In this document: positions 7,637 through 33,021 of the stretch, in pieces
How the letters are laid out: each line of letters begins with the position of its first letter
How positions within the stretch are numbered: position 1 is the stretch's first letter
DNA from: Altererythrobacter sp. B11
GTDB lineage: Bacteria > Pseudomonadota > Alphaproteobacteria > Sphingomonadales > Sphingomonadaceae
Length of the DNA stretch: 64,000 nt
Assembly (NCBI RefSeq): GCF_003569745.1
Contig: NZ_AP018498.1
Coordinates: 3,697,001-3,761,000, forward strand
Direction: 5' to 3'
Translations under genes and position numbers: made by a program
The notes under the pieces: generated by a model
What the model was told of the DNA's origin: nothing
The model's input: only the letters and a program-made list of their open reading frames with translations
Databases searched by the model: none

Positions 7637-7873
7637 CCCTTTGGCACCGGAAGTGTCCGGGGCTTTCCTACTCGCCGTCGCTTGTGCCAGCCCGCACGCA
7701 TGCTTCTGCCGCCTCGCAACCCTTTGGAAACCGCCGAAACGCCTGCTTTTTCGGAACTCCTCCGGGGGGCCGGGAATTTTGCCATGAACCCTGTTCCAGC
7801 GTGTTCCAAACCTTCCACTTTTGCGCGGGCTTTGCCCTCGCCAGTTGTTCGTCAAAAGGTTACACTCGCAACC
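7637..7873 (+). other. Leader region with no recognised element
   Basis: 237 bp between the SLC13 gene and the ATG of the PLP enzyme. An open frame continues upstream of 7874, but its codon use and residues look non-coding. I looked for SAM-type riboswitch cores, which could be expected ahead of a methionine-pathway gene, and could not recognise one. It presumably holds the promoter. Confidence 0.4.
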
Positions 7874-31629: not shown

Positions 31630-32214
31630 TCACCCGCAGCTTTCGACATAGGCGAGCTGCGGCATCACCCCCACGAACATATTGCGGACCTTGCCATCCC
31701 GGCCGATTTCGAAGCGCAGCCGCGGATCCTCGCCCGGCTGGGTGAGATATTTGGCCGGCGCTTCCTCATATTTATGCGGTTCCTCGCGGAAGCCGGGGAA
31801 GGCCGCGCGCACCTCTTCCTCGGTGGAGCCGGCGCCGATCCCTTCCATCAGTTGCACGCTGGAGCCCTGCGACACGGCGATGCGCCGCAGCTGGCCCACC
31901 TCAACCATTCCCTCTACTCCGGGATAATCGGGCGAGGTGGCGATGGTGCAGCTGCTCCCGGGCGCCTGCGCCCCGTGCTGGGCGAAGCTGCTGGTTTCCG
32001 GCACCGGAGCGCCGATGGTGAGATCGCCCAGCCCATCCAGCGTGAGCATTGTGACGGTGGGCGAGGCGCCCGGCAGCGAAGACGCGGCCCCTGGCGGCGT
32101 GGCGGCGTCCGTCGCCGTGGCGCTCGCCCCCGCCTCGGGGTTCGCCTCCTCCCCGGATGAACAGGCGGAAAGCAGCGCGAGCGCCGCGGCAGAAGCAAGG
32201 GTGAGGGTTCTCAT
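31630..32214 (-). CDS. Lipoprotein of unknown function
   Basis: A 194-residue lipoprotein with signal ALALLSACSSGEEANPEAG, a Thr/Ala/Pro-rich linker, and a domain starting MLTLDGLGDLTIGAPVPETSSFAQ. This resembles small domains that start with LGLGDLRIGM. It also carries GAGSTEEEVRAAFPGFREEPHKY and terminal paired cysteines. No biochemical role known. Start taken at ATG 32214. Upstream lies the 21-bp-period array. Confidence 0.75.
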   Translation of the reverse strand: MRTLTLASAAALALLSACSSGEEANPEAGASATATDAATPPGAASSLPGASPTVTMLTLDGLGDLTIGAPVPETSSFAQHGAQAPGSSCTIATSPDYPGVEGMVEVGQLRRIAVSQGSSVQLMEGIGAGSTEEEVRAAFPGFREEPHKYEEAPAKYLTQPGEDPRLRFEIGRDGKVRNMFVGVMPQLAYVESCG

Positions 32215-32360
32215 CAACCCCGAACCGCCCCGCCGGCAGGCAGTTCCCGGCGAAAGGCCGCCCTGCGGCAGATGGCGCAAATCGGGGCAGTCGCGGAGCC
32301 GCCCCGCCCCGCCCGGCTGGAACGGCCTGGCACAGGGTTCATGGGCAAAAACCCCCTTTG

Positions 32361-32520
32361 CGTAACCCTGCGCGCGCCCATGCGTGACCTTGCGCGCCGA
32401 ACCGTCACCCTGCGGCAAGAAGTGTCACCCATACGCGCGCCACCCGTCACCGTGAGGCGGGCGCATCTGTCATGCGCGGGCGTGCCCTGTGTCACCTTGC
32501 GCACTCCTCCCGTCACCCCG
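32361..32520. repeat. Array of eight GTNAC-type units with a period near 21 bp
   Basis: GTNA[C/T] cores start at 32362, 32384, 32404, 32424, 32446, 32469, 32491 and 32512, spaced 22, 20, 20, 22, 23, 22 and 21 bp. Most are followed by a CCTGCG- or CTTGCG-like tail (for example GTCACCTTGCGCAC). The period equals two helical turns, so units would lie on one DNA face. The intervening bases vary and the units are too short for a CRISPR. It sits immediately downstream of the HTH gene at 32513-32833, whose stop codon falls in the last unit. Confidence 0.75.
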
Positions 32521-32833
32521 CGCGCCGCAGCAGCGGATGGACTTCGCGCGCCGCGGAGCGGCGGGCGGAGCGGGCCTTCGCCGCCTCTTCCAGCGCCCAG
32601 TCCCAGAACTCGGCGAATTTCGGCGCCCGCGCCCGCAGGCGATAGGCGGCCTGCCGGCTCATCCCCACACCCCGCGCCGCCCGCGCCACCTTCCCATGCT
32701 GCGCCAGCGCACGGAGGAAGGCGCTCGCCTTCTCCCCCGTCCAGCGGCTGTTGTCCGGCGGCAGCGCCTCGGGTGGGGCAGGCGTGGCGACGGGCGCGGA
32801 GCGCGATTCGGCGGGGGTGTGATGCTGGCTCAT
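32513..32833 (-). CDS. Small helix-turn-helix protein
   Basis: A 106-residue protein with a disordered Pro/Ala-rich N-terminus, then WTGEKASAFLRALAQHGKVARAARGVGMSRQAAYRLRARAPKFAEFWDWAL. The middle of this is a clear helix-turn-helix (V-A-R-A-A-R-G-V-G-M-S-R-Q-A-A-Y-R-L-R). It ends in basic residues and stops at a TGA formed inside the first GTGAC unit of the repeat array. The HTH resembles those of phage or IS terminase-like small subunits and transcription factors. It may bind the adjacent array. Start at ATG 32833; ATG 32842 is also possible. Confidence 0.75.
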   Translation of the reverse strand: MSQHHTPAESRSAPVATPAPPEALPPDNSRWTGEKASAFLRALAQHGKVARAARGVGMSRQAAYRLRARAPKFAEFWDWALEEAAKARSARRSAAREVHPLLRRAG

Positions 32834-32986
32834 GCCCGGCATGGCAGCACAGCGGCGGGGGTGTAGGGAAGGTGGGAGTGCGGCGCTGGCCGCTCGCTCG
32901 GGTGAAGGCTTGCCCCCTCGCTCGCGACGGCTGCCCCCCACTCGGCTCGAAGCCCCCTCTCGGCGCGAAGGCCTGCCCCCCTCCCT

Positions 32987-33016
32987 CGTCACCCCGGACT
33001 TGATCCGGGGTCCAGC
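32987..33016. repeat. Short palindromic element (ACCCCGGA...TCCGGGGT)
   Basis: ACCCCGGA (32991-32998) and TCCGGGGT (33004-33011) form an 8-bp stem around CTTGA, inside the CGTCACCCCGGACTTGATCC type element common in Proteobacteria. It lies just after the stop of the nuclease-like gene and may act as its terminator. Confidence 0.7.
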
Positions 33017-33021
33017 GCGGG

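Follow-up and report, generated by a model that had tools for sequence, protein, structure and literature searches.

A helically phased GTNAC array behind a terminase small subunit-like gene is likely the cognate binding site of its product

The 64,000-nucleotide stretch of DNA analysed here (the window) carries on its minus strand a gene (32513–32833) for a 106-residue helix-turn-helix (HTH) protein with a DNA-binding domain like that of phage terminase small subunits (TerS). Read in the direction of this gene, a left-end motif (LE; TTCCCTAC, 32863–32870) lies 37 bp before the ATG and belongs to the same family as the T(T/G)TCCTAC sequence found before other paralogs and before dispersed tails. 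Eight units follow on the same strand: GTGAC at 32512–32516, overlapping the stop codon of the gene, and at 32491–32495, a degenerate ATGAC at 32469–32473, GTGAC at 32446–32450, 32424–32428 and 32404–32408, then GTCAC at 32384–32388 and GTTAC at 32362–32366, spellings that are also frequent in the penultimate and last units of homologous loci. A hairpin (GCAAA-ggggg-TTTTTGC, 32345–32361, minus strand; hairpin 2 of the element described below) precedes a 3′ tail (TGAACCCTGTGCCAGGCCGTTCCAG, 32317–32341, minus strand), a member of a dispersed repeat family. Upstream of the HTH gene, positions 32977–33017 hold a copy of another dispersed repeat (approximately GTCACCCCGGACTTGATCCGGGGTCCAGCG), with several matches in the same genome and in related ones.

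The eight-unit array is real. On the minus strand it reads as GGTGAC(A/G)C units beginning at the stop of the HTH gene, with a unit of approximately CANGGTGAC(A/G)CTT, and its steps of 20–23 bp correspond to two helical turns. The 200 bp array stretch contains seven GTNAC, five of them chained at 19–24 bp spacing. In 5000 dinucleotide shuffles of this stretch the mean was 0.59 GTNAC and the maximum 4, and chains never exceeded two; no 200 bp stretch in the rest of the window has a chain of four. The three-unit pattern GGTGAC..RGTNAC..RGTNAC matches the 3.84 Mb genome only at the array locus (reversed-pattern control 0), while a generic 5-mer chain search proved too insensitive for finding such arrays. 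A first-pass annotation made from sequence alone had claimed eight units at 20–23 bp spacing, and this held: seven of the eight read GTNAC on the forward strand (32362, 32384, 32404, 32424, 32446, 32491 and 32512) and the one at 32469 is a degenerate GTCAT. It had also stated that a periodicity no better than that of shuffled sequence would refute the array, an outcome that was not met. One correction applies to its description: the TGA of the HTH gene (32513–32515, minus strand) sits in the unit at 32512–32516, so that the minus strand is the natural reading direction of the array. Folding of the array as RNA gave no structure beyond background (z=-0.26). No match above threshold was obtained with Rfam for the array locus and 20 dispersed sites, no site in sigma-70 promoter and intrinsic terminator scans of the locus, and no match to the locus with PADLOC.

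The 106-residue protein is a chromosomal relative of the phage TerS DNA-binding domain. Pfam and NCBIfam searches of the locus returned only sub-threshold HTH matches; against PHROG 4044 (terminase small subunit), the product scores E=2.5e-11 and a long paralog (L004) E=2e-19. In an AF2 model built on an alignment of 14 sequences, helices 33–46, 49–55 and 60–69 form the HTH and a long helix spans residues 71–97. The recognition helix corresponds to about residues 60–69 (RQAAYRLRAR), and R65 is the residue that covaries with the site, as set out below. The best Foldseek match in the PDB is Sf6 TerS (probability 0.92, with a weak E of 1.3), and in BFVD most of the named top matches are small subunits of terminase (E about 1e-3). 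These structure matches are weak by E-value; we nevertheless count the fold relationship as shown. No relatives of the 106-residue protein were found in plasmid, phage and viral-contig collections, and no long form turned up in phages. Family searches at the locus gave no Rep match among the neighbouring proteins, and no large terminase lies beside the array. The genome has matches to PF03237 (large terminase) at 0.77 and 3.79 Mb, the array locus being at 3.73 Mb, and elsewhere one family member (L082) is immediately followed by an ORF that looks, without a family search, like a large terminase.

The array is conserved 3′ of the gene. It lies directly 3′ of the HTH gene in all eight nearest homologs outside the window's own genome (L005–L012, mostly titled Erythrobacter, Qipengyuania, Aurantiacibacter or Sphingomonadaceae), where the usual ending consists of GTCAC and/or GTTAC units with T-rich sequence and a tail, for example TGGACcGTGTTCCATGTGTTCCA. 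Further relatives were drawn from 150 genomes of the family, and more loci with the array 3′ of the gene were recorded (L021, L023, L024, L042, L026, L030, L038 and L041). Across loci the modal step is 21 bp (37 of 72), with 22 bp (19) and 20 bp (10) next, in a count in which a few loci include a spurious upstream unit. A logo of 99 units shows GTNAC with a preceding A/G-rich CANG favoured, and the remaining spacer varies freely; the anchor G, A and C are invariant by the manner in which units were picked. In 16 of 17 tabulated array loci a unit lies over the TGA stop codon of the HTH gene, and in 9 of the 17 this is the first unit. The gene beyond the array differs among loci in kind and strand (clustering of neighbours without a gene filter was swamped by spurious high-GC ORFs). 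Arrays also occur without an HTH ORF, at L170 (G088), L171 (G027) and, in short form, L159 (G080), with left motif and tail kept. L013, other distant paralogs and the majority of long forms lack an array of this kind, and no recognisable downstream site was found in the distant paralogs. At four distant loci (L014–L016 and L027), the ORF itself contains related units (CCGAC or mixed) about 21 bp apart; in translation these in-ORF units yield QADA/QGDA repeats.

The spelling of the site covaries with one residue of the recognition helix. Downstream of long-form paralogs lies a compact element of three half-sites, for example GGTGACACGGTGTCACCTTTGTCACC at L051 and TTGACACGGTGTCAACTTCGTCAA at L029. 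Comparing x in the AYxLR of the recognition helix with the first base of the downstream half-site, we find R or K with G in 15 of 15 cases and A or Q with T in 5 of 5 (Fisher p=6e-5, without correction for shared ancestry; half-sites were called partly by script and partly by eye). The residue switches within one close clade, being K in L034/L036 and Q or A in L029/L035/L061. Among loci fetched later, L205, L211 and L224 agree with this rule and L204 does so in part. Non-R short forms (L014–L016) have CCGAC units, and the window protein matches the rule, its R65 pairing with GTGAC units.

The array locus is a gene-and-array copy within a dispersed family that runs from LE to tail. With up to three mismatches, TGAACCCTGTTCCAGNNNGTTCCAG has 48 matches in the window's own genome (20 forward, 28 reverse; control 0), and related genomes hold about 10–25 tails of their own version each, the congener G002 having none. 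T(T/G)TCC(C)TAC or a close variant lies 84–134 bp upstream, on the same strand, in 26 of 31 own-genome tails examined; within 600 bp of tails in this genome the strict left motif was never seen downstream or on the other strand. The left motif precedes 120 of 144 HTH paralogs, compared with 1 of 142 control stretches. Hairpins fold better than mononucleotide shuffles of them, both after the left motif (p=6e-5) and before the tail (p=0.004). Ordinary gene-less elements are not enriched in GTNAC (4 found, 2.5 expected). Most dispersed copies share no interior sequence, and one gene-less subfamily of about 11 own-genome copies (G000:C1, L230–L240) has a shared interior (CTGTTCCACGGCGTTCCAAGCG ... 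CGACGAACCGAGTGG) with different flanks, often lying between other repeats such as GTCCTGAGCCTGTCGAAGGA. About 11 aligned copies revealed no target-site duplication by eye, and no terminal inverted repeats were seen, LE and tail being unlike each other; flank DNA was too diverged from that of two congeners to reveal an empty site. At L136/L162 both flanks are common across genera, and at L164/L168 the downstream gene is; the tails differ in both pairs. GTTCCA tails are frequent (at least 3) in all 8 genomes with an S[PA]QTAYRAR-type paralog (in G121, counted among the 8, it reads SAQTVYRAR) and in 0 of 22 others; one QTAYRAR paralog lies at G000:C1:1732549–1733331. Paralog types in this test come from listed matches only, so that absence is unproven, and ancestry is uncorrected. 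The tail in the window (TGAAC/GTTCCA) differs from the array half-site (GTGAC). We found no description of the element in the published literature searched.

Some further copies were observed in passing. A second, gene-less copy lies in the window at 7664–7809 on the plus strand, where a left motif TTTCCTAC is followed by a tail ATGAACCCTGTTCCAGCGTGTTCCAA. At L168 (G132) two tails stand in a row, the first of GTGAC type and the second TGGACAGTGTAACACCCGGTCCATG, suggestive of one element type nested in another. Two long paralogs from the window's own genus (L003 and L004) have a GTTCCA-type tail directly after the stop codon.

We suggest that the array is likely the cognate binding array of the neighbouring TerS-like protein, with the caveat that binding is inferred and that no binding experiment stands behind it. 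Here, eight helically phased sites (steps mostly 21–22 bp) would be bound by the HTH protein encoded immediately upstream, with one HTH per unit and R65 predicted to read the first G of GTGAC. Since the units are two turns apart, the proteins would stack along a single face of the DNA, perhaps via the long fourth helix, and form a cooperative nucleoprotein complex that, by analogy, may be comparable to iteron or small-terminase/pac complexes. The complex would form at the gene's 3′ end and not at its promoter, and we therefore envisage a self-contained gene-plus-site module, whose protein may act on its own element and, in trans, on gene-less copies, rather than a classical autorepressor; the array is 3′ of the gene, and no GTNAC was found between LE and ATG. 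Because the tail is spelled differently from the array half-site, this reading requires either another protein or another role. The first-pass annotation had proposed an array for cooperative binding next to an HTH gene, to be looked for beside homologues and refuted by homologous loci that lack it. This is supported by conservation in the nearest homologs, where the refuting outcome was not met, by helical phasing, by the residue/half-site covariation and by gene-less arrays, binding itself remaining an inference. Its HTH assignment held, and its iteron-like label held for the layout only, no Rep-type initiator having been found; it had missed the terminase relationship, the 3′ tail and the dispersed element family.

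Other readings of the locus can be considered. One possibility is a mobile, MITE-like element in the order LE, hairpin, optional HTH gene plus array, hairpin and tail, in which array and tail would be the sites by which the right end is recognised, the HTH protein would serve as DNA-recognition factor and an unidentified enzyme would move the element. The 48 dispersed tails (against none in the control), with LE upstream of most on the same strand, speak for this, as do the array copies without the gene and the subfamily of about 11 copies, whose common interior and different flanks look like dispersal. However, the element contains no transposase, no target-site duplication was seen and interiors are mostly unshared, and the positions common across genera (L136/L162 and L164/L168) suggest old, maintained sites. 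We consider it unlikely that the array is conventionally regulatory, controlling the downstream lipoprotein gene (31630–32214) or blocking read-through from the HTH gene. Array and tail do sit between two same-strand genes, and regulatory regions commonly have operators clustered at such spacing, but the gene beyond the array varies among loci and the scans gave no site resembling a promoter or terminator.

Still less likely is a packaging signal, in which a domesticated TerS and a pac-like array would recruit a phage or gene transfer agent (GTA) terminase, leading to preferential packaging of the locus and the tails. In its favour are the TerS relationship of the protein, the apparent large terminase downstream of L082 and the large-terminase matches in the window's own genome; in addition, the 22-bp pac of phage P22 lies within its TerS gene, and the TerS of SPP1 makes contact at several places around pac (PMC9611059). 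Against it, there is no large terminase beside the locus, searches of viral and plasmid collections gave no relatives, no long form turned up in phages, and G121 has 20 tails yet no PF03237 match. GTAs, moreover, are known to package host DNA largely at random. The alternative offered by the first-pass annotation, a decayed coding tail with Val-Thr repeats, failed and is all but excluded. A long minus-strand ORF does span the array, and in L014–L016 and L027 the ORF includes related units spaced about 21 bp apart. At the array locus, however, the reading is rejected by the HTH stop codon in the first unit and by steps (20, 22 and 23 bp among them) that are mostly not multiples of three; more widely, varied spacers around a kept motif and arrays that persist without an ORF argue against it.

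The binding-array reading can be placed beside known systems. Phage TerS proteins and their pac or cos sites (P22, SPP1, Sf6, PaP3) share the TerS-type HTH, a site in or next to their own gene and a contact length of about 20–22 bp. They differ in that the array locus has no adjacent large terminase and belongs to a chromosomal multi-gene family, that the short form comprises only an HTH and a long helix, and that many phased units stand in place of one pac. Plasmid-origin iterons (RepA/RepE type) are likewise direct repeats about 21–22 bp apart beside the gene of the presumed binder, and the array meets the iteron criterion of direct repeats of about 17–22 bp in helical phase; unlike them, it is chromosomal, without a Rep protein and with no known replication function. 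MITEs and REP-RAYT systems resemble the family in their short, dispersed intergenic units with hairpins and in having copies with and without a gene, whereas here no transposase in the element, terminal inverted repeats or target duplications were seen; as regards the Y1 transposase partner of REP-RAYT, the element itself encodes only an HTH DNA-binding protein.

A bolder reading, which taken as a whole we regard as about evenly balanced, is that these loci form an undescribed family of sphingomonad chromosomal elements, each with a left motif, a hairpin and a half-site tail, present at tens per genome and in some cases carrying a TerS-derived HTH gene, here together with an expanded array; helix and site would co-diversify, with paralogs owning separate sets of dispersed sites. 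If so, the paralog family would be a naturally occurring set of protein/site pairs, one base of the site being predictable from one residue of the recognition helix. A phage packaging DNA-reader would then have been converted many times over into chromosomal modules of gene plus site, in alphaproteobacteria of a common group, and these genomes would contain a set of conserved dispersed elements for which mobility, chromosome organisation, packaging and regulation are the candidate functions.
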